Position numbers and translations under genes: made by a program | NCBI RefSeq assembly: GCF_025698545.1 | Contig: NC_068565.1 | Location: 5,022,001-5,086,000, forward strand | Direction of reading: 5' to 3' | Length of the DNA: 64,000 bases | Origin: Gossypium raimondii | Lineage: Eukaryota > Streptophyta > Magnoliopsida > Malvales > Malvaceae | In this document: positions 39,781 to 56,900 of the stretch, in pieces | Layout: the number at the start of each line of letters is the position of its first letter | Numbering within the stretch: the first letter of the stretch is position 1 | The notes under the pieces: generated by a model | The model's database searches: none | The model's input: the letters and a program-made list of their open reading frames with translations, nothing else | What the model was told of the DNA's origin: nothing

Positions 39781-40860
39781 TGAATAAAGAAAAGAACAGG
39801 AAAGTGAAGATCATGTAATTAAAGTGACGGTTGAGACAAATCATAACTTAATCTGTTAAAAGTCATTGGTCAAGGTATCAATTTGGCGAATTCCACAACT
39901 TTTATACAATTTTATTTTAGTACTAAAACTAAAAAGTTTGTAATATGAGTATTGATGTTATATATTTTATCATTTTAATCACTTATTATTAATTTGTCAT
40001 TACATAGAATTATTTTAGTCATCCAACTTAAATAAAATTTCATTTTAGTCACTTATTTTATATTTTTAATTTTTATATATTTTTTAAGAATTAACTTATG
40101 TCGGGTTAGCAAAATCATTTTATCTTTTTCATTTCTTTTATTTTTAATTTTAGAATTAATTTCAATTTTTTCTCAATAAAAGGAAGGGAAAAACTTAAGA
40201 TTTTGCAGAGAATTATTTGGATTCTAATAGGAAGAACTTGAGTTTTTAGTGGAAAAATCAATTTATTTTTTCATTTTCATTTTTAAAATTAGTTTTAGGT
40301 TTTTCAATAAGAAGGAAATATTTGGGGTTTTGTAGGAAATTACTTTGAATTTTTATAAGAAATTTTTGAATTTTTAGAGGAAAAATTATTTTATCTTTTA
40401 ATTTCTTTTACTTTATCGTTTTAGAATTAAATTAAAATGAAATGAATTATGATTTTTCGATAAATGGACAAAAGTTGTGGTTATAATATATAGGTTGCCA
40501 TTCTTTTGTTTTAAAGAGTACTAGCACTCTTAGTACTCTTTTTTTTTTACCTCTTTTTTTCCCAATATAGTGTGAATGCTTAGAAATTGTAATAAGAAAT
40601 TACAGATGCCAACACCAAAGGGTTGAAGTTTGGTCGGAAGAAAGACCACTAGTATTGCAATTACTATCTTTGTTTCATATTATTTGAAATGACTTAAATG
40701 TTACGTATATCTCTCACTCTCAAAATAGAAATTACATCATAGCACACTTGGTCATATTTTTAATTAAGATTTGACTGGCATTTTTTTTTTTTTACAAAGT
40801 CAAGGTACATCCTAGCACACTCGTTCACACTAGCCATGTTTTTCTTTTTCTTTAAAAAAA
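39780..40860. repeat. RLP upstream-type module without a gene (copy A)
   Basis: Similar to 59840-60617 plus 61782-62090 and partly to 1310-1440. Shared phrases include CTTAGAAATTTATGAATAAA, TTTTAGTCATC, TGTGAATGCTTAGAAAT, GAAGAAAGACCA and AAATTACATCATAGCACACT. It has no R1 insertion, so it represents the empty site (GTGGTTATAATATATA near 40470). No coding region follows. Confidence 0.65.
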
Positions 40861-41529
40861 TTATTTTAATCAAATTATATTTATTTTTATGATAAATATT
40901 ATATTATGTTTTTATTTTCTAAATTTGAACTTTAAATATACTTTTAAGGGTAAATAAAAAATATTATTTAAATTAAATTTTCTATGAAAACTTTAACTTT
41001 AAAACTAAATATAAAAATTAATGAATTTAGTTTTAGAATTTAAAATAATAAATTAATAACACAATTAAAATACAAAAGTTAAAACTCAAGTTGTCGTAAA
41101 TATTAAAGTAAAAATTAAAATTTAGAATCAAAACTAAAATAAATAATACATATGAGAAACTTGTATGGCTTCTTCCATCTGTATTGTGCGTTTTGGAACA
41201 ACTTCCTAATTACATTTCAAAATGTCAATGAGTAGGCATGAGTCAGTACAACTTTAGACAACCTTAAATAGTTTTATGTATTACGAAATCTACACAAGTG
41301 AGGAAAATTGCACTAGTTTAAAAAAGTAGACCAAAATGCATAATATGAGGATGAACTTGCTTGGAAGTTTTCTCATCTACATGTTTTCATGTTTTCTCTG
41401 GGAAAATTAGCAGAAAGGCTGGTTAATTTTTCCAAGGGTAAGTGTTGGAAATGCCTTGATAATGGATAAAAATTAGGTTGCATGAAGCTCATCCATGAGA
41501 AAATATTCCTAGCAAACGATGGCAAGAAA
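40861..41529. other. AT-rich intergenic DNA
   Basis: No supported ORF. The left end of the captured-exon segment must lie here or slightly further on, but no CACTACACC-type terminus is visible. Confidence 0.4.
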
Positions 41530-41885
41530 AAGGCACCTATTGTTCTTGCTCCCATCCTCCTAATCTCTCCCCAGGGTCATAGTTTGTGAACACCCGAAAC
41601 TCATTTCCAAGTTTGCTTGAGTGTCGTGGCCGAAAATTGCATGCACGCAAACCCAAAAGCTCTGCAGCTCTATCCCTCTGCACCTCTCCTGCAAGTCAAT
41701 CTCTTAGCAATCAATAATACCAAACCACGAGAAAGGATGCAGATTAATTGAGACAGAATCTTGCAAAATCTAATCGTAAGTATATTTCATGTTCTTGTGG
41801 GGAAAAAATTATCTCCCTGCAGAGTAGCAACTATAAACCTATAGTTGGAAAAATGTAAAACATGAGGATTGGAGAAAATACTCAC

Positions 41886-42306
41886 CACAGCAATAATGAT
41901 GAAGAGATCTTCCTAGTGTTTTTCATCTACTAGTTGAACTGCAAGACTATCACTTCCATCATCCTCCTAGAGGTATTAAAAAAGAAGAAAATATAAGAAT
42001 TGGTTACTCAAAGGTACTACCCTTCCTGATGAAAGATGAACTGTTAAATACATGCAGAAATGAACCGCTCAACACATACAGAAAGAACTTACTTTTCCCA
42101 TAATCCACTTAACGAATCCACCAAACAAACTCCGACAAGCACTACCTGAACCTTGCCTACAAAATATTTTTAAAAAATCAATAAATCATCAATTGAATTA
42201 CAACTAAAATTCTTGCATCTCTATAAGTAAAAAAGGCCATACCTAGCTATAGCAGAAAGTTGACTCTCATCTTCACTGACATTCATAAGCTTTGCAAGTG
42301 CAAAAA
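41886..42306 (-). pseudogene. Captured fragment of mevalonate diphosphate decarboxylase (MVD), three exons
   Basis: Minus-strand exons 42306-42243 (64 nt), 42156-42093 (64 nt) and 41966-41886 (81 nt), joined by GT-AG introns with consistent phases. They read ALAKLMNVSEDESQLSA, then [17 protein letters not shown], then EDDGSDSLAVQLVDEKH, stop, EDLFIIIAV. This matches the centre of MVD, the ATP-dependent last step of the mevalonate pathway to isopentenyl diphosphate, including the GSGSACRS substrate loop. The stop (41913-41915) replaces a Trp that I recall as conserved in plant MVD. The protein's start and end are missing. MOB1 and MLO fragments lie upstream in the same orientation. A further open piece (41709-41530, minus) downstream was not recognised. 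Confidence 0.85.
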
Positions 42307-43248
42307 CTGCATCAAACCCAAAACCATTAGTCCTATAAACTGTATTAAACAACAAAGTAAAAAAAAGAAAAGAAGGTTAAAGGGTCTGCACAAGGCTAGC
42401 TGAATTTATTCCACTGCTTAGCATGGTTTATATTAACTTCATTGATCAGATTCAAAGAACAACATATAATCTGTAACTAACTGAATTTATTTCTTAAACA
42501 CGGAAAGCTACAAACTGATATATGGTCGATATAAAACTCACCATTAGGAACCGATAACGAGACCTTCCCGAGCGATGTTTGTTGTCACACGAAGCACTGC
42601 TTTACAAGAAAAATATTTAAATATCAATACAAATACATAAACTCTTCTTTACAAGAAAAATATTCTAAGCTATCAATACGAAAAACATATTTAGTAAGTT
42701 TGAAAATTTCATAATTAAAGCAAAAGATATTTAAATATCAAAAATATAATAGTTTTAGCTTTAACATATTTGATGTCTTTCTACTGACATCTAAAATATG
42801 GCAAAAATCAAATTATTACAAAAGACAAAGGCAAATCATAATAATAATAAAATAATAAACATCATCTCATCATAACCTAGGACTATCAAATCAAAGAAAA
42901 CATGATATAAAGTCAAACTCTTATCCCACTAATCAGCCAAGATTAAATGATATATTTTGACATCAAAATTCAAAAAAAAAAAAAAGGCAGATATATATAA
43001 CTTTAACAAAAATAAATTAATACAGTATCATCTAGCTCAAAGAGATAAAGAGCCTAAATTCAAGTTGAGGGAGTTTCGATTTATCTAGATCCTTAGAGAC
43101 TGAACACATGCATTGTTTGAGAGAAAAGGTTTCAATACCATCAATGGATCCAAACACGACAGAGGTCATGAGGGAAAACAATAATATTTAGGAATTGTAC
43201 GCCTAATTTATTGAAAAGGGCAAAAAGAATCTAGTTTATATCTCTTAC

Positions 43249-43342
43249 TTAGGTCCTGCAGTCATTGTAGGGCAATTCTCAAGAGTACAAAACTTAGTGA
43301 GGGTACCATAGAGCAGATTCACCTGATTGAAGAAATCCACAG
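43249..43342 (-). pseudogene. Captured exon of MOB1 (Mob kinase activator-like)
   Basis: A single exon with a TTTTTCAG acceptor and GTAAGA donor, 94 nt, reading [19 protein letters not shown] then [12 protein letters not shown]. This is the plant MOB1 region holding the Cys residues of the zinc site. MOB1 is a co-activator of NDR/LATS-type kinases in growth and division control. Only this exon of the gene is seen. It lies between the MLO and MVD pieces, same strand. Confidence 0.85.
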
Positions 43343-43934
43343 CTGAAAAAGATCCAACAATTATGCTTTAGCAATGAGCTTCAAAGAACAATCGGTAGTA
43401 ATCTAGAACTAGGGAAGAAAGTACTAAAACATTCTATGAAAAATAAACTAATGAATGGAATACAAGTAAATTAGTTGTTATGAAAGTAATGACAGCAAGG
43501 CCATGCTAAAGTAGAAAATACATGGATAAATTATATCCACAGTTTTTTTTTTTTTTTTTGCAAAAATAAACATTTATTCAAACTGTTCAATATGTTCATG
43601 GTAGCAAGATCTTATCGTAAATTCATACTGAAATTTGATGAAAAATGACTTATTAGATAAGGTGATCAAACAATTGCATATGAAACACATGTACAAATTT
43701 GCATATCAAACAATTTGCTCATAATCCCAAACCAGAAATACATGTACAAATAAATCAAACATGCTATTGTACTTACAATTAAGGGAATAAAAGGTAGCCA
43801 TAAATATGAATACCATCATGTTGATGAAGAGCAAATTGATCATTAATCATTAGTAAGCTCAAAAATATCCATCACTATGTTCATATGATGACACTATTGA
43901 ACTCAATTCTTTATGAATATGATGAGATACTTAC

Positions 43935-44332
43935 CATGTGTATAGGCAAGCAAGAACAAGACAGCAATGAACCAGATGATTGGACTGCAAACACAATCAT
44001 TAACTTAGCATCGTAAAGTTTTAACTAATAAAATTGAAGAACTCTTGGTTAGCTTGAGACTACCAACCTGATCCCTACAACAACTTTAAAATCATTCTCT
44101 AATGATCTCTTGATGTATTTCTGGAAATCGAATTTTGTTTCGTTTTCAGGTGCCAAATGTGCCTGAAAGTATTGCAGATTGAAGTTTCAATTAGAAACAA
44201 GAAAATAGGAAAAATAAAATAGCATAAAACTCCATAGAAATCCATGGCTTAGCTTACCATGATAAATCCATGCCTCAATGTCAGGTAATCAACCTTTGTG
44301 ACTGACCCAAAGAATTGTCTAAAGAAACAGAC
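43935..44332 (-). pseudogene. Captured fragment of an MLO family gene, three exons
   Basis: Minus-strand exons 44332-44258 (75 nt), 44162-44068 (95 nt) and 43984-43935 (50 nt) with GT-AG introns and matching phases. They read VCFFRQFFGSVTKVDYLTLR..., then [17 protein letters not shown]..., then PIIWFIAVLFLLAYTHG. This is the loop and following membrane helix in the middle of MLO, a seven-helix plasma-membrane protein that in several plants conditions powdery-mildew susceptibility. The rest of the gene is absent. Splice sites and reading frame are intact within the fragment. Confidence 0.88.
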
Positions 44333-44339
44333 CTATAAA

Positions 44340-45160
44340 TAAAGAATCGAATCAGAATTCATAACCATAAAATGTCACCTAAAGAAAAAGAATCCTATGC
44401 TATAAATTCAATGGTTGCTGGACTTCTTTTACAGAAGGGACTCGGATTTTTCATTTTTCTTGAAATACTCAAGTTTTTTCGTAGAAGTCGGGCCCTCCAA
44501 TTATATGAAAAAAAGTTCAAATGTTCATCTGATTGTACTTACAATCCAAAGAGTTAAGGTAGAACGGCTCCAAAAGCTCAGATGCCTAAACCTGAAAACT
44601 AATAATCATAAAGTAAACCAATTGAATTAGAAGTAAAAAAAAAAAAAAAACATAGTTCTAAAACTAAAAATAGAAATGAAAAGGCAAAAGACAAAGAGAA
44701 AGACAGAAATGAAAACGCAAACACAAGTAAAGATTCATACCTGAAATCAGTTTTCGACAAAGCAACCAAAAAGAAACAGACAGACCCACAACAATAGATT
44801 TCAAACAAAGAGTGAAACTGTGAGTTTTGTAATAGAAAGCTTAGGGATTATCCCTCACGAAAGTAGACAAATAAAAAACCAAAAAGAAACAGACAGGCCG
44901 ACAACAATAGATTTCAAACAAATATCGAAAACAGGGGATTTCATTATCACCAAAAAAAAAAAGAAACGGCAGACAAAATCTTTGGGTTTCTCCCTCTCAC
45001 GAAAAAGAATGAGGGGAAATATTGAAATGAAACCGAGAGAGAGAGAGAGATAATGAGAAGGAAGCGGGATATGAAAAGTCTAAAGAAAACGGGAGTGAAG
45101 AAAAGTCTGAAGATTAGGGATTTCAGGGGGTGAAATTGGGGTAAAATGGCGGGATTTTAT
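44340..45160 (-). promoter_or_regulatory. Possible promoter/5'UTR of the captured-exon unit
   Basis: Read on the minus strand this has a CT-microsatellite leader (plus-strand GA run at 45039-45050) and a donor-like TTCAGGTATGAATC near 44740. A ~45-bp phrase (plus strand AACAGACAG..., ACAACAATAGATTTCAAAC) is duplicated at 44773-44810 and 44888-44925. It could be a captured gene 5' end that drives transcription into the MLO, MOB1 and MVD exons. No transcript evidence is available. Confidence 0.4.
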
Positions 45161-45164
45161 AAAA

Positions 45165-45606
45165 TTAAATGATTTTTGCGGCGTTTTCTAAAAAAAACGC
45201 CGCTATTGTCAAATTGAACAAAAATTATTTCATTTGTATTTTAATTAATATAAATAAATAAAATATTTTTAGCGGTGCTTTTTCAAAAACGCCGCTAAAG
45301 ACCCCAACATTAGCGGCGCTTTCTCAAAAACGCCGTTAAAGACACCAGTATTAGCGGCGCTTTTCCAAAGACACCGCTAAAAACCCCAGCATTAGCGGCG
45401 CTTTTACGAAAACGCCACTAAATCCCCCAAAGGTAAGAAAACGACGCCGTTAGGCTTTGGTTTTTTGCGGCGTTTTTTTTAAAAACGCCGCTAATGCTTA
45501 TTTTTAGCGGCGTTTTTTGAAAAACGCCGCTAATGCTCGATTTTTACCGGCATTTTTTATCCAAACGCCGCTAAAAGTGCCGCTAAAAGTCTGTTTTGGT
45601 GTAGTG
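45165..45606. mobile_element. CACTA transposon end: subterminal repeats plus right terminus
   Basis: Many copies of TTAGCGGCGCTTTT and AAAACGCCGCTAA in both orientations end in GTTTTGGTGTAGTG (45593-45606), the reverse complement of a CACTACACCAAAAC terminus. Such clustered inverted short motifs next to the terminus are the transposase-binding subterminal regions of CACTA elements. The matching left end (CACTACACC...) was not found between 40 and 45 kb. The 3-bp target copy would be CAC on the right. Confidence 0.8.
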
Positions 45607-45932
45607 CACTGTTCGGGAGTTTTTCATTCTATGGTTTTTTAGGAATATTTTATGCCTTTTTGTATGACGATACTCTGTTTCTATAATATATCCCTTTTGT
45701 ATTCGGAATAATTTATATTTTTACGAGCCAACGCCATTAAGACTTTGGTATGCACCCATTTTTCCCATCATCTAAATTCAAAAATTTTCGTCTGATCACA
45801 AAGTTCCATTTCTTGTTTCTGCCTGCTGCTTTTTTCAACTTGTTCACGATCCTACGTTATTAAATTTTTTAGTACGTAAATAGAAAATACTATAAACCAA
45901 AATAATTAAAATAGTTTGGAAGTACGTCATAC

Positions 45933-46686
45933 CTCGCCTTTCTTCGAATGCCAAAATCTAACCGCATCTTCCCATTGGTACCTCAACATACCCGGCGGGA
46001 CAGTTTGCAATTTCTCATCGAGGGTTGTTTTTGTCTTATAATAATTTTTCTTCAAAGTACTTTTGTTGTCTCTCCATCTTTTTCCCAATGCCTTCTTTAC
46101 ATAAGCATCCGAGACCTCTAAAGCATACCTCGCCTACAAAAAACAAAAAACACAAGTTAATAAAGTAAATATAAATGAAACTATTTCCCAAGCATTACAG
46201 ATGACATTAACATTATATTACCTTAATATTATCGAGGGCTTGGTTTTTGTTGCTATCGGGCATTTGAGGCCATGACTCGTAGTTGATAGGCAACATATTC
46301 GGATTTCATGCTAAAATGCCCATGTATCCTACTAAAAGTCGAGCTTCTGATCCAACAGGCTGACCAAAATTGTTTCGTCCAACTTTGACACGCTCGACTG
46401 GATCTAACTCATATAACTCTCTAAGTAGCGTACGTCCTCGACCTCTGCGCGTCCCACCATTTTCACTACAAATGGTATATTATAATATAAGAATTTGAAA
46501 ATAAATAAACTATAATGAAACACGCATGTAAATTAAATGTAAAATTACTTTGAACTTCAGAGGATCCTCAGTTGTAATCGAACATTCAGAGATCCAAGCT
46601 GCATCTGTTGTTCAAGATTATTTGTTTCATCGAGTTTGGATCATTTTGAACAATGCTTCCCCTTAGAATTTTTCTTCTAGGCATTT
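45933..46686 (-). pseudogene. CACTA Transposase_24 (Ptta/En/Spm)-like protein remnant
   Basis: Minus-strand exons: a first piece beginning at ATG 46686 (PRRKILRGSIVQNDP), then 46465-46222 (RGRTLLRELYELDPVERVKV) and 46133-45933 (VSDAYVKKALGKRWRDNK, then WEDAVRFWHSKKGE). Splice signals are GT-AG. This is the plant En/Spm-type Transposase_24 accessory protein. A TGA breaks the second exon (VGYMGILA, stop, NPNMLP). A further exon piece near 45850 (DREQVEKSSRQKQE) runs into stops. Dead copy. Confidence 0.75.
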
Positions 46687-46881
46687 TATCTGCGATACAC
46701 ATAAAATAGTTGACAACGGGATAACTAATTACAACAATAATAAAGACATATAAAAGCAGTTGAAATATATAATAAGACCAAGATTTAAATTATGATATTA
46801 CATATAATTAAACAATCGTAAAATCTTACTACATCATTATTCGTAAATATCTTCATCGGTATCCTGACGAACCTATTGAAA

Positions 46882-47398
46882 TTATGCACTAGTACTAGGG
46901 ATATTATTGTTTAAGTTTTGTTCTGAAAAGGGCAAAGTTACTGATCTATCGTCGATGTTATCTCTACTCCCACTGCCCATGTCAAACAAGCCTCTAGGGA
47001 TGTTACGGAGTACAACGTACCAACCCTCATCAGTTGGATCTTTTGAGTAAAAAACTTGTTTGACTTGAGATGAGAATACATACGGCTCATCTATCAGTTG
47101 TTGTCCTGTGTGAATCAATCGGTCAAAGTTCACCATTGTAAAACCAAATTGATCTTGCTTAATTCCACGAGCTGTATTAACATCGGCCCAATCACCACGA
47201 AATAAGACAACTTTCCATTTGCCGTAGTAATCCAACTCAATTATGTCAGTAAGATGTCCGAAATATTCCACATTTCCCTCGACAGGATTATTGTCCCTAG
47301 CACTTGCATAACTGGTAATTGCAGAATTGACAACTATTCCACAATTTTGCGTTCTCCTCAACCTCTCGCTATATTTTGTATGAAATCTAAATCCGTTG
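46882..47398 (-). pseudogene. CACTA transposase C-terminal remnant (DUF4216-like)
   Basis: An open frame on the minus strand reads ILINGFRFHTKYSERLRRTQ, then GIVVNSAITSYASARDNNP, KWKVVLFRGDWADVN, KQDQFGFTMVNFDRLIH and EPYVFSSQVKQVFYSKDP. This is the DUF4216 region that follows the Tnp2 transposase in plant CACTA elements. It begins abruptly at about 47398, where a TAAGTTATG repeat array starts, so the catalytic part is lost. It lies directly upstream of the Transposase_24 remnant, in the usual order. Confidence 0.8.
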
Positions 47399-47409
47399 AT
47401 GAGGATCGC

Positions 47410-47640
47410 GATATTATCTAAGTTATGTATTATGTAACTTATGTAAGTTGTGTATTATGTAACTTATGTAAGTTATCAAAGTAATGTATGTTATGTAAGT
47501 TGTAAGTTATTATGTATTATATAACTTCGTAAGTTATGTAAGTTATGTAAGTTATGTAAGTTACGTAAGTTGTGTAAGCTATTTCGGTTGTGTAAGCTTT
47601 GTATTATGTAAGTTATGTAGGTTATGTATGATGTAAGTAT
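47410..47640. repeat. Short tandem repeat array (GTAAGTTAT-type)
   Basis: Irregular tandem copies of TAAGTTATG, TATTATGTAACTT and related phrases. It interrupts the CACTA transposase remnant. Confidence 0.75.
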
Positions 47641-48785
47641 ATCACTATTACGTATCGATTTATAACCGATTTAAAACTATAATATATTTTAACAAGTTCG
47701 TAAGTAATGTAATATATACTTAAATTTATAGCGGGTAATGTATTTAAGTAACATATTTAAGTAAAAATTTAACCAAATTTTAGTAAGTAATGTTTCGAGT
47801 AACATATTTAAGTAAAAATTTAACGAAATTTTAGTAAGTAATGTATTTAAGTAATTTATTTAAGTAATATATTCAAGTAATATATTAAGAGTAAAATTTA
47901 GTAAAAATATGTTTTATTTATTAATGTAAGACATCTAAAATATACTTAAAAATATTTATTTAAGTAATGTAAGATATAAATTTTAAAAATTATATTCGAA
48001 CAATATATATATTAGTAATAAGTTAAATTAAATTGTAAAAATATTAACATATATATAAATTTTAATATTAATAAGTTATGATAAAATATATGAATATATA
48101 CTTTTTTAATATTAATAAGTTAAATAAAAACTAAAATGTGTCAAAATCATTGTCGCCTATGTATTATGTTTATTTTCCTTTACAGCACACAGTATTGTAC
48201 AAGTTGAGATTTATGATGTTGTTACTTGATTGATAGAATCATCAAATTGAACCAATCCTCTCTAACATCCTTTTCTCATCACAAAACTCAGAACCACATC
48301 AAAAGAAAAACTTTAATTGATGATTTTGACAAATAATATTTTTCTCAATGTTTAGCAAACTGCTGATACAAATTAATCTAAACTGGAAAACCTCCTCAAG
48401 TTGGAGCAGTGGGGGAACCACTCGGTTTTTGTTTCCACTTGATAAACACTTCATTCAATGAAAATAGCAAAACAGAAAACAAAACATAGAAAAGCGAAAA
48501 TGAAAATAAAGAAACATAAAATGGTACAGATACATAACATGCTAGAGAAATGAAATTTCGTGTCCATATTCCTTTCAAAGTCGCAAGATTTGTTACCAAG
48601 TAAAAGAATTTATTTTCATGAAAGAAATCCGAACAAATAAATACATTTGATGATTTAAGCAAAGTCTAAATTTGATTATGAATCGGTTTATAGTTTCTGT
48701 TCCTAAATAAAGAAAAAGAAAACTATATATAATAAAGAGATTGAATCAAAAATGTATATAAATTTATATCCATTTTAAACTAGAT
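47641..48785. other. AT-rich DNA, no gene recognised
   Basis: Repeated AAGTAATGTA/TTTAAGTAA phrases to about 48000, then unassigned AT-rich DNA. One minus-strand open frame (48396-48662) has no recognisable family. Confidence 0.45.
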
Positions 48786-49390
48786 ATTAAAACTATATAT
48801 ATTATATATTAAAATGTATATAAATTTTAAGTATATTATAAAAGAAAAAAAGATTGAATCTCGGATTTCAACCAAAAATATAACTTTGCTCTTTAGAAGT
48901 TTGAACTTACAAGTTTTGAACAGTGCTGTAGTGTTCAGTTCCTTGAGACTATTGGATTTTTTCTAACAGTAGTATAGTAGCCCTGCCATAGCAAATATTA
49001 ATAGATATCATTCAATAGGTTTAGAAACAGTTTTGCAATTTTAAATGAGCAATGTAAATAAATGATTCAACATGGTAGCAATTAAAACTATATATATTAT
49101 ATATTAAAATGTATATAAATTTTAAATATATTATAAAAGAAAAAAATAAAAAAAAAGATTGAATCTCAGATTTCGTGCTAAAATATTACTTTGCTCTTTA
49201 GAAATTTGAACTTACAAGTTTTGAACAGTGGTGTAGTGTTCAGTTCCTTGCCAGTATTGGATTTTTTCTGATAGTAGTATAGTAGCCCTGCCATAGCAAA
49301 TATTAATAGATATCATTCAATAGGTTTTGAACAATTTTGCAATTTTCGACAGAACAACAGTAAATGATGAAACATGGTAGCAATGGAAAC
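48786..49390. repeat. Direct tandem duplication, ~300-bp unit, two copies
   Basis: The block starting ATTAAAACTATATATATTAT and containing TTGAACAGTG, GTAGTGTTCAGTTCCTTG and AGTAGCCCTGCCATAGC occurs at 48786 and again at 49081, with few changes. Confidence 0.8.
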
Positions 49391-49529
49391 TAATTTTCGA
49401 CAAAACAGCAGTAAATGATTCAATTTGAAATGAGAAATCCAAATGCTCAAAAGCCCCAAATTCCAGATATATTCGAAAGACCCTTTTTACTGTACGCAAT
49501 TAGTAAACATTTGTTCAAATTCAGTATTC

Positions 49530-49700
49530 CAGAAACATTCGCGCATGAAGAAGATGAAGGAAGTAGTTGAACTTACCAAGCAGTTCTATGCACCGCATAC
49601 AGACGGAGGTGTTGATGCGATGAAGCGAGCGGTTTGGGAGAATGAGAGGTTGTGATGCAGTAAGGGATTAGGGAAATTTTAGGGGTTTGGGAGAATGAGA
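49530..49700 (-). other. Possible first-exon fragment on the minus strand
   Basis: On the minus strand a segment ending in ...GAACTGCTTG is followed by GTAAGTTCAAC, a good donor, and lies just inside a CACTA subterminal array. It resembles a captured 5' leader exon. Its plus-strand translation has no known family. Low certainty. Confidence 0.25.
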
Positions 49701-49739
49701 GGTTGGGGATGGAGAATCGGGTTTTAGCTTAAGTTAAAA

Positions 49740-50530
49740 GGATGGGAAAAAAACGACGTCGTTTTCATCAAAATAATTAACCAATTTATGGCGTTTATAT
49801 ACCAAATACCACTAGTAATATGATCAAACGCTGTCGTTTCCCGATCGATTAACTCAAACTCATGGCATTTAGAGAAAAGCGGCATCGTCTCCATAAAATT
49901 AAAACATTTTTGCGGCGTTTACTAAAAGCGCCACTAAAGTAAATAAGAAAAAGCCGTTTTCCTAAACAATTTCTGTAATTTGCGGCGTTTATATACCAAA
50001 TACCACTAGTAATATGATCAAACACTGTCGTTTCCCGATCAGATAACTCAAACTCATGGCGTTTTAGAGAAAACGGCATCGTCTCCATAAAAATTAAAAC
50101 ATTTTTGCGGCGTTTACTAAAAGTGCCACTAAAGTTAAATAAGAAAACGGAGCCGTTTTCCTAAACAATTTCTGTAAATTGCGGCGTTTATACATAAACG
50201 CCACTAAATATTAGGCCAAATACAGTCCATTAACTCGAACTCCTGGCGTTTTAGCCCAATCGCCACTAATAATACAGATAAAACGGCAGCGTTTGCATAA
50301 ATCTTAAAACATAGTTACATTAATTTGCGGCGTTTTTCTAAAGCGCCACTAAAAGCAAATAATAAAAAGTAGCGATTTTTATCAAATGGTATGAATCTCA
50401 CCAAAAATCGCACTGCTTTGTCTCCAATATTAAGAATATTTTTGGCGTTTGTTATAAAACGCCGCTAATATCTAGTTTATAGTGGCGTTTTTAATAAAAA
50501 CGCCACTACTACATTAAATTTTCTATTGAG
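49740..50530. repeat. CACTA subterminal repeat array
   Basis: Many GCGGCGTTTA, AAACGCCACTAA, ACGGCATCGTC and similar motifs in both orientations, including a near-exact repeat of a ~190-bp block at 49793 and 49980. No CACTACACC terminus was found on its left. Confidence 0.7.
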
Positions 50531-50869
50531 ACGGCGCTGTTTTGCCAAATTTTAATGAATAGTTTTGTTAATTTGGTAATATTTAAAAAATTAGATAAAA
50601 TTATCAATCTCAGCTTTTTAAGTAATATTTATAAAAATTAGGTAAAATAAAATTTTAGTTTTTTATTTCTTTTTATTTTTATTTTCATTTTATTTTTGTA
50701 ATTTTGACAATTTTTTACAATTTTACAATTTTAAATTATTATATTCAAATTATTATATATTGCATATCAATTTTAAATTAATAATCTTTACAATTTATTA
50801 TTATCTCCTTTACAATTATATAAAGAACTTATTTAATATGTTAATTAAAAAGTACTAATTAATTCAAAT

Positions 50870-51310
50870 GTTAATCCCTAACCCGACTCCAAATCCATAA
50901 CCCCTAACCCCTAACCCCTAAACTTTATTTAATATATAAATTAAAAACACTAATTAATCTAAACCTTAAACCATAGCCCAATCCCTGACTCCTAACCCTT
51001 AACCCTTAACCCTAAACCCTTAACCCATAACCTCTAACCCCTAACCCCTAAACCTTATTTAATATATACTTAAAATACACTAATTAATTTAAACCCTAAA
51101 CTCTAACCTAACACCGAGTTTATAAACCCTAAATCCCTAACTCTTAACATCTAACCCCTAACCCATAACCCCTAACCCATAAACCTTAAATCACATTAAC
51201 CCTTAAACCAGAATCCCTAATCCATAATCTCTAATTTCATAATCTATAAAACTTAAAATTGTAACTCCTAAACCGATCTTAAATCCTAAATTAACCATAT
51301 ATATACCTTA
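50870..51310. repeat. Degenerate telomere-like repeat stretch
   Basis: Irregular runs of CCCTAACCCCTAA, ACCCTAAACCC and TTAACCCTTAACCC, related to the plant telomere repeat CCCTAAA. The stretch lies between two CACTA subterminal arrays. Copies are too irregular to be a functional telomere. Confidence 0.7.
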
Positions 51311-51479
51311 ACCATATTTATTAAACCCTAAACTATAATGATAATTAAATTAAATATTTTAAAATTAATACTATCTTATCTCTTACAATTATATTTGAAA
51401 TAATTTAGTACATAAATTAAAAATCAATAGTATTTTAATTTATCCATTTTTAACAAATATTTTAATTTATTTTAAATCC

Positions 51480-52294
51480 ACAGTATTAGTGGCGCTTCAT
51501 AAAACGCCACTAAATCCTCAAAGCTAAAAAAGCAGCGTCGTTGAAATTTGAAGTATTTTTATGCTTTCCAAAAACGCCGCTAAAGACACGAGCATTAGCG
51601 GCAAGATACATAAAAACGCCACTAAATCCTTCTCATTTCGTAAAAGCGGCGTTAAGGCGAAGTATTATTGTGACGCTTTCACAAAAACGCCGCTAAATCA
51701 CTGAGTATTAATGGCGCTTTAATAAAAACACCACTAAATCCCCGAAAGCTCAGAAAACGGCGTCGTTGGGCTGAAGTATTGTTGTGGCGCTTTCACAAAA
51801 ACGCCGCTAAATCCCTGAGTATTAGCGGCGCTTTAATAAAAATGCCACTAAATCCCCAAAAGCTCAGAAAACGGTGTCGTTGGGCTGAAGTACGTTTGCG
51901 GTGCTTTCCCAAAAACGCCGCTAAAGACCTCAGCATTAGCGGCGATTTCATGAAAACGCCACTAAATCCCCCGAAAGCTCAAAAACGGTGTCGTTGGGCT
52001 GAAGTACGTTTGCGACGCATCCCCAAAAACGCCACTAAATCCCCAAAAGCTCAGAAAACGGCATCGTGGGGCTGAAGTCTTTTTGCGACGCTTACCGAGA
52101 AACGCCGCTAAAGACTGATAATTGGCGGCGCTTTCATAAAATCACCATTAAATCCTTCTCAGCTCAGAAAACGGCGTCGTTGGGCTGAAGTCTTTTGCGG
52201 CGCTTTACCAAAAACACCGCTAATGCTTATTTTCTGCAGCGTTTTTCGTGTAGCGCCGCTAAAAACGCGGCTAAAAGTCAGTTTTGGTGTAGTG
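51480..52294. mobile_element. CACTA subterminal array and right terminus
   Basis: About ten units of AGTATTAGCGGCGCTTT...AAAACGCCGCTAAATCCC with GAAAACGGCGTCGTTGGG spacers. It ends in GTTTTGGTGTAGTG (52281-52294). The adjoining DNA (TTAGAGTG...) is Copia coding sequence, so the terminus marks an insertion point. Confidence 0.8.
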
Positions 52295-56187: not shown

Positions 56188-56900
56188 ATTATAATATATA
56201 TGTTAGCTTTTGTTTTGTTTTAAAGAGTAGCAGTACTCCTTTATTTTTGTCACCTTTCTTTTTTTTCTTAGTTTTCCAATTTAGTGTGAATGCTTAGAAA
56301 TGGATACCGACACCAAAGGTGGATGTTTGGTTGGAAGAAAGACCATGACTACTGCAATTATAATTTTTGTTTCATATTATTTGGAATGACTTAATGTTAT
56401 GTACATCTCTCACTCTCAAAATAGAAATTACATCATAGCACACTTAGTCATCATTTTTAATTAAGATTTGACAGGCATTTATTTGATTTTTTTTTTTAAC
56501 TAATTCAAGGTACAGCACACTCTCACTAGCCATCATTTTCAATTAAGATCTGACTGGCATTTATTTGATTTTTTATTTTTATTTTTTACAAATGCAAGGT
56601 ACATTGTAGCACACTTGTTCACACTAGCCTTGTTTTTCTCTTTTTTAAACACTGCTAGTACTGCTTTATCTTTGTCATCCTTCTTTTTATTTTTGTTGTT
56701 TTTCCAGTTTAATGCGAATGCATAGAAATTGCAACAAGAAATCACATATCCTCACACCAAAGGGTCGATGTCTGCTTGGATCAATCACCATGACTATTGC
56801 AATTACTATTTTTTTCCATATTGTTTGAAATGACAATGTTACATATATCCCTCACTCTCAAAATAAAAATACAACTTTATTCGTAATGTTAAAAAACATT
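56188..56900. repeat. RLP upstream-type module without a gene (copy B, itself tandemly repeated)
   Basis: Phrases GTGTGAATGCTTAGAAATG, ACACCAAAGG, GGAAGAAAGACCATGAC, ACTGCAATTA and AAATTACATCATAGCACACT match the regions upstream of the RLP genes. The set occurs twice (from about 56220 and from about 56640). No receptor coding sequence follows, so these look like leftover flanks of lost RLP copies. Confidence 0.6.

Follow-up and report, generated by a model that had tools for sequence, protein, structure and literature searches.

Host-gene capture by CACTA transposons has been described in several plants. Tgm-Express1, a soybean CACTA of 5.7 kb, carries fragments, exons as well as introns, from five unrelated host genes; it sits in the intron of a gene, and the captured fragments are spliced as cassette exons in transcripts (PMC1947982). 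In Arabidopsis, gene capture by Pack-CACTA elements involves tandem insertions and aberrant excision (Catoni et al., 2019, as related in PMC13317346 and PMC8903248), and the gene-capturing CACTAs of Chenopodium hold captured fragments beside the element's own coding sequence (PMC8978399). Fused Pack-TYPE elements have been described in rice and maize, and group AB of the rice Os-Pack-Mariner cluster 217, which contains parts of groups A and B, was explained by the fusion of neighbouring insertions (PMC8903248). The gathering of genes by neighbour fusion in Pack transposons had thus been inferred from element structure (PMC8903248).

Here we focus on a unit in a 64,000-nucleotide stretch of Gossypium raimondii (the window) which very probably is a copy, truncated on the left, of a non-autonomous CACTA transposon (Pack-CACTA) that is itself a hybrid. 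Set against the accessible parts of these accounts, it resembles Tgm-Express1 as a CACTA of similar size with multiple host-gene pieces (PMC1947982), with the differences that genes and host are others and that its probable hybrid origin is legible from its relatives. It shares the CACTA superfamily and gene capture with the Arabidopsis Pack-CACTA (Catoni et al., 2019, via PMC13317346 and PMC8903248), for which mobilization was observed, whereas in cotton we read a history from DNA. Captured gene fragments and subterminal repeats are common to the cotton unit and the Chenopodium elements (PMC8978399), but the cotton unit is a coding-free mosaic of several genes. Along with Tgm-Express1, the closest systems are the fused Pack-TYPE elements: the halves match two separate element lineages, and the published fusion model fits (PMC8903248). 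Unlike in rice group AB as there described, host-gene fragments were already present in each of the two cotton partners, and both captured fragments are cut by the join. The literature listed for the terminus and for Pack or CACTA elements in cotton contained no report of the hybrid element, and the available portion of PMC8214411 cites Catoni et al. (2019) with nothing further on the topic. Exon shuffling by Pack transposons is clearly known already, and the hybrid is a finely resolved new example of it. Likely parents, an intact sister with its ends and target duplications, the shared join, the shared stop and both donor-type lineages are observed side by side, so that much of the order of events is readable.

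Extent of the unit and its captured gene fragments

A sequence-only reading of the window had proposed a Pack-CACTA from 41886 to 45606, carrying exons of three host genes: MLO, MOB1 and mevalonate diphosphate decarboxylase (MVD). The CACTA terminus with its subterminal repeats was found where that reading had seen it, at 45606. The left limit, however, has to be moved outward, as alignment with relatives puts the start of the shared unit at 40850/40851. From left to right, the unit consists of the following parts.

40851..45606, minus strand: the whole unit, a probable hybrid Pack-CACTA with its left end missing; near-full copies at L021 and L022; right CACTACACC end at 45606
40851..41160, no strand: left internal element sequence, family-wide, found complete or partial in 12 of the 13 two-ended elements (76-97%)
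41161..41340, minus strand: MVD fragment that includes a piece of a later exon (about 41161-41205, EVVPKRTIQMEEAIQ); 97.2% to L034 3440-3619
41388..41708, minus strand: PF10237 methyltransferase fragment; last exon 41537-41688 with native stop, and flanking sequence; Pfam match
41703..42388, minus strand: MVD fragment; exons 42243-42306, 42093-42156 and 41886-41966; match to L034
42389..42747, no strand: segment present in full or in part in 9 of the 13 two-ended elements
42748..43586, minus strand: MOB1 fragment; exon 43249-43342; Pfam match and match to L030
43586..44587, minus strand: MLO fragment; exons 44258-44332, 44068-44162 and 43935-43984, partial exon 44543-44590
44588..45160, minus strand: CT-rich leader, common to L021-L025 only, among the loci compared
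45161..45606, minus strand: subterminal repeats of the TTAGCGGCG type and right CACTA terminus CACTACACCAAAACAGAC, ending at 45606

Exon and intron pieces of four genes are present instead of three, with a PF10237 methyltransferase (likely parent L041) recovered by a six-frame scan. MLO, MOB1 and MVD do lie on one strand, the minus strand, in the order proposed, as judged from Pfam matches on hand-joined exons (Mlo, E 3.8e-37; Mob1_phocein, 6.4e-10; MVD-like_N, 1.4e-17). The exon lengths that had been given (75, 95 and 50 nt; 94 nt; 64, 64 and 81 nt) are exact, each exon having AG before and GT after it, although the tally had missed the partial MLO exon at 44543-44590 and the MVD exon at about 41161-41205. 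The unedited six-frame Pfam scan lists Mob1 and MVD-like_N and adds PF10237; Mlo is not listed there at E 0.1. The identity of the MLO piece is secured by the hand-joined Pfam match together with its DNA identity to L027 (97.6% over 878 columns), a locus with 12 Mlo stretches over three frames. No transposase was found in 41401-45160 by the six-frame Pfam scan at E 0.1.

The sequence-only reading had suggested searching for parent loci, introns included, and likely parents of all four genes were located, "parent" here meaning a locus that carries the neighbouring exons and not necessarily a complete gene. The captured pieces are 96-98% identical to these loci. Besides L027 for MLO, these are L030 for MOB1 (96.4% over 840 columns, with further Mob1 exons alongside), L034 for MVD (98.25% over 686 columns, the captured part being flanked by further exons on either side) and L041 on contig C9 for the methyltransferase (97.5% over 321 columns, with earlier exons upstream). 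Since the identity runs through the introns, at 96-98%, retrocopying is excluded, as had been argued from the retained introns. Relative to L027, the MLO fragment has an internal deletion at 43688/43712, which is common to the window copy and L021-L025. The methyltransferase reading frame ends in EVQRDRAAELLGLRACNFRPRHSSKLGNEFRVFTNYDPGERLGGWEQEQ and a stop, and the piece is flanked by MVD sequence on both sides; its join at 41703-41708 is common to L026 and three hybrids, and it is a later deletion, since L028, L029 and L037 keep longer methyltransferase and MVD pieces. The segment at 42389-42747 has no match in L034, and its origin was not found. The gene annotation of Gossypium raimondii may count such captured pieces as genes.

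Copies, relatives and the MOB1-MLO join

The search of the plant's own genome covered 750.8 Mb in 281 contigs, and 40 of 3037 candidates were scored, which makes all copy counts lower bounds. Matches to the stretch first delimited are near-full on C10 and C6 and partial elsewhere, on contigs between C1 and C13, again as minimum counts. Copies of the whole unit, which the sequence-only reading had proposed to look for, do exist: there are at least three hybrids, in the window (C1), at L022 (C6) and at L021 (C10), in addition to modular relatives. L022 is intact, with 5,007 bp, both CACTA ends and a 3-bp target duplication, while L021 has lost the outermost part of its left end. Over about 4.8 kb the window copy is 96.5% identical to L021 and 95.7% to L022. 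With gaps not counted, the three differ pairwise within 40851-45160 at 57/4284, 60/4277 and 63/4288 sites (1.3-1.5%) and have 27, 29 and 32 private changes, similar numbers which are expected if the hybrids spread from one source at about one time. At a few 1e-9 substitutions per site and year, this divergence would correspond, as a guess, to roughly two million years.

Around some of the listed places, 20 stretches were fetched, three with likely parents (L027, L030 and L034) and 17 with elements. An element was called two-ended if each end had at most 3 mismatches in 14 within the fetched stretch, pairs being chosen around shared modules. On this definition, 13 of the 17 element loci have two convergent CACTA ends, and L021, L028, L032 and L038 have a single end. 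Two features bear on how the unit arose.

43580..43592, no strand: join of the MOB1 half and the MLO half; switch at 43586 with a 1-bp overlap
41913..41915, minus strand: in-frame TAG in the third MVD exon where L034 has TGG; TAG in all three hybrids

L026, an element of 7,102 bp with a target duplication, has the order left end, MVD, methyltransferase, MVD, MOB1, and its match to the MOB1 parent extends 135 bp beyond the point where that of the window copy stops. L023, L024 and L025 carry the MLO fragment together with the leader and the right end, and in them the match to the MLO parent extends 264 bp beyond the join. The window copy, L021 and L022 all switch at 43586, with one shared base, from L026-type to L023-L025-type sequence. 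These three also share with L026 the join of the MVD side to MOB1. As for the third MVD exon, among the only six sequences with the searched motif TAG is present in the window copy, L021 and L022, and TGG in L026, L028 and L034. The left half thus matches the L026 lineage and the right half the L023-L025 lineage, with each relative passing the join into its own parent gene, which argues for a hybrid origin: most likely, two Pack-CACTAs gave rise to one hybrid, which then spread, and a joint capture of its four genes is improbable. That MOB1 and MLO were each taken independently and directly from the genes was rejected in view of the shared joins and the shared MLO deletion.

The case for fusion rests on the shared joins and gaps instead of on trees, because the segments are too short to resolve the order. 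The splits between the three hybrids and L023-L025 reach 86 and 92% support in the trees of MLO and the leader, respectively; over the seven single-segment trees, 28 of the 32 support values fall below 80%, and the hybrids are not grouped in all of them. For MOB1b and the segment 42389-42747, L026 is nearer to L022 than the window copy is. In the MLO segment the window copy differs from L024 and L025 by 2.4% and from the parent L027 by 2.2%; later gene conversion is possible.

From these relationships a course of events can be proposed. One Pack-CACTA lineage would have collected pieces of the PF10237 methyltransferase, mevalonate diphosphate decarboxylase and MOB1, and a second lineage the MLO piece. 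The left portion of an element of the former lineage and the right portion of one of the latter would then have been united in a single element, with the join at 43586 inside both captured fragments. The most likely route is that two neighbouring insertions became mobile together through their outer ends, while deletion and end joining removed the inner ones. The fetched loci included no pair of the two donor types side by side. The hybrid, with the stop codon in MVD, would have reached at least three loci by transposition presumably powered in trans.

Alternatively, one ancestral Pack-CACTA could have captured the four genes successively, with L026 and L023-L025 as derivatives that lost or exchanged a half and with the join at 43586 as an internal deletion. 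We regard this as unlikely. The single overlapping base at 43586 does resemble a simple deletion, and another internal deletion, at 41703-41708, occurred in the family. However, outside the terminal regions neither L026 nor L024 matches the other half of the hybrid, and comparison of left ends with that of the hybrid (about 85% for the L024 type, 96% for L026) means that two separate replacements would be required. An older all-in-one element that was later split is a less simple account than the fusion of two lineages.

Coding potential of the captured exons

The sequence-only reading held that every exon keeps its coding phase. This applies from MLO into MOB1, whose exons would splice into one open frame from the leader, but not from MOB1 into the first MVD exon, nor to the third MVD exon with its in-frame TAG. 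If MVD exon 1 is skipped, MVD exon 2 would continue the MLO-MOB1 frame up to that TAG. Such an arrangement might be taken for a working chimeric gene, in which transcription would start from the leader and splicing of the captured exons would yield a new protein or an MLO regulator, and for Tgm-Express1 in soybean splicing of captured exons into transcripts is indeed on record (PMC1947982). The exons are also closer to the parents than the non-exon sequence is (1.1 vs 2.6% difference for MLO, 2.1 vs 4.6% for MOB1 and 1.0 vs 1.9% for MVD), yet this is expected if the parent genes alone are under constraint. Among the hybrids themselves (window-L022 and window-L021 summed), exons differ at 9/1136 sites and other sequence at 25/2733; exons differ about as much as non-exon sequence, so that no constraint is seen since the hybrid formed. 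With the MVD stop common to three copies and the left end of the window copy deleted, a working gene is highly unlikely. The parity of exon and non-exon sequence among the hybrids and the shared MVD stop give no sign of a working protein, and function would appear to be lacking.

The family looks modular, since L029, L031 and perhaps L035 carry other gene pieces in their right halves. L029 has a methionine synthase piece there (Pfam 33.4 bits, cut-off 27) and L031 a methionine synthase match just under the cut-off of 27, at 26.3 bits. Pfam matches below the cut-off are also seen to exportin-7 in L035 (right half), to GLTP in L026 and to a tRNA synthetase in L024; L033 (5127-7500) has no Pfam match. 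It is a speculative and rather improbable reading that the family acts as a combinatorial exon shuffler in which repeated fusion between elements recombines modules from the methyltransferase, MVD, MOB1, MLO, methionine synthase and perhaps an exportin-7-like gene, and that at least one product, the in-frame MLO-MOB1 join, is transcribed and then either translated or made into small RNAs against the parent MLO.

Transposon superfamily, left junction and neighbouring DNA

Multi-gene mosaics with introns are typical of Helitrons, which make no target duplication and have TC and CTRR ends. The mosaic here resembles that type, and the window copy lacks a left CACTA end, but capture by a Helitron or a Mutator-like element with a CACTA end merely alongside has a negligible probability: complete relatives have CACTA ends on both sides and 3-bp target duplications, and L022 refutes it. 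Identical 3-bp flanks are found in 12 of the 13 two-ended loci, L022 included and L023 being the exception. In the window copy, repeats of the TTAGCGGCG type are found at the right end; relatives have them at their left ends. Assignment of the unit to the CACTA superfamily is well supported by the ends, 3-bp target duplications and subterminal repeats seen in these relatives. The sequence-only reading had named two observations that would speak against a Pack-CACTA, the absence of any other copy sharing the CACTA ends and the contiguity of the fragments at one ancestral locus. L022 shares the ends, and remnants of a single host locus with no transposon are hardly conceivable, as the fragments match likely parents at four separate loci (C8, C9, C10 and C13), positions which refute that idea, and the unit recurs at three sites. 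Genomic capture by a CACTA element, in line with the original proposal, is well supported by the two-ended relatives, their flanks and the match of the parents through introns.

To the left of 40850/40851, the other copies examined run into TTAGCGGCG-type subterminal repeats, whereas the window runs into spacer DNA of a receptor-like-protein cluster.

40845..40856, no strand: putative left deletion junction; TTTAAA (40851-40856) common to the host spacer and the element interior

Host homology at this junction extends over 40782-40856, which matches 56576-56649, and TTTAAA is found in both alignments, to the host and to L022. From these alignments, the left CACTA end of the window copy appears to be lost by a deletion joining the element to host DNA at the TTTAAA microhomology; this would have happened after the spread of the hybrid, and the copy should now be immobile. 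No left CACTACACC end of the hybrid is present in the window (plus strand, one mismatch allowed). Additional left-end matches (up to 5/18 and 3/14 mismatches) have no adjoining subterminal repeats and were rejected as ends. A weak match at 41883, near the start first proposed, is the end of MVD exon 3.

To the right, the unit adjoins a second, related element.

45607..52294, minus strand: part of a second CACTA adjoining the hybrid; same-family terminus at 52294

This element contains a DUF4216 reading frame (46882-47454, E 2.8e-20) and subterminal tandem repeats over about 800 bp; no left part of it was found. From its position, the hybrid probably inserted into this second CACTA. Within the second element, a direct repeat of about 300 bp (87% identical) lies at 48786-49392; it includes CACTACACC at 49230-49238 and CACTACAGC at 48925-48933, neither of which has subterminal repeats nearby, and both were rejected as ends. 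The receptor-like protein cluster itself, with leucine-rich repeats, occupies 1632-38932 and consists of two 1004-aa reading frames and several broken copies, with repeated spacers between the copies. Finally, positions 50830-51330 of the second CACTA are rich in degenerate CCCTAAA-like repeats, and similar stretches occur in L028, L031, L032, L036 and L037.
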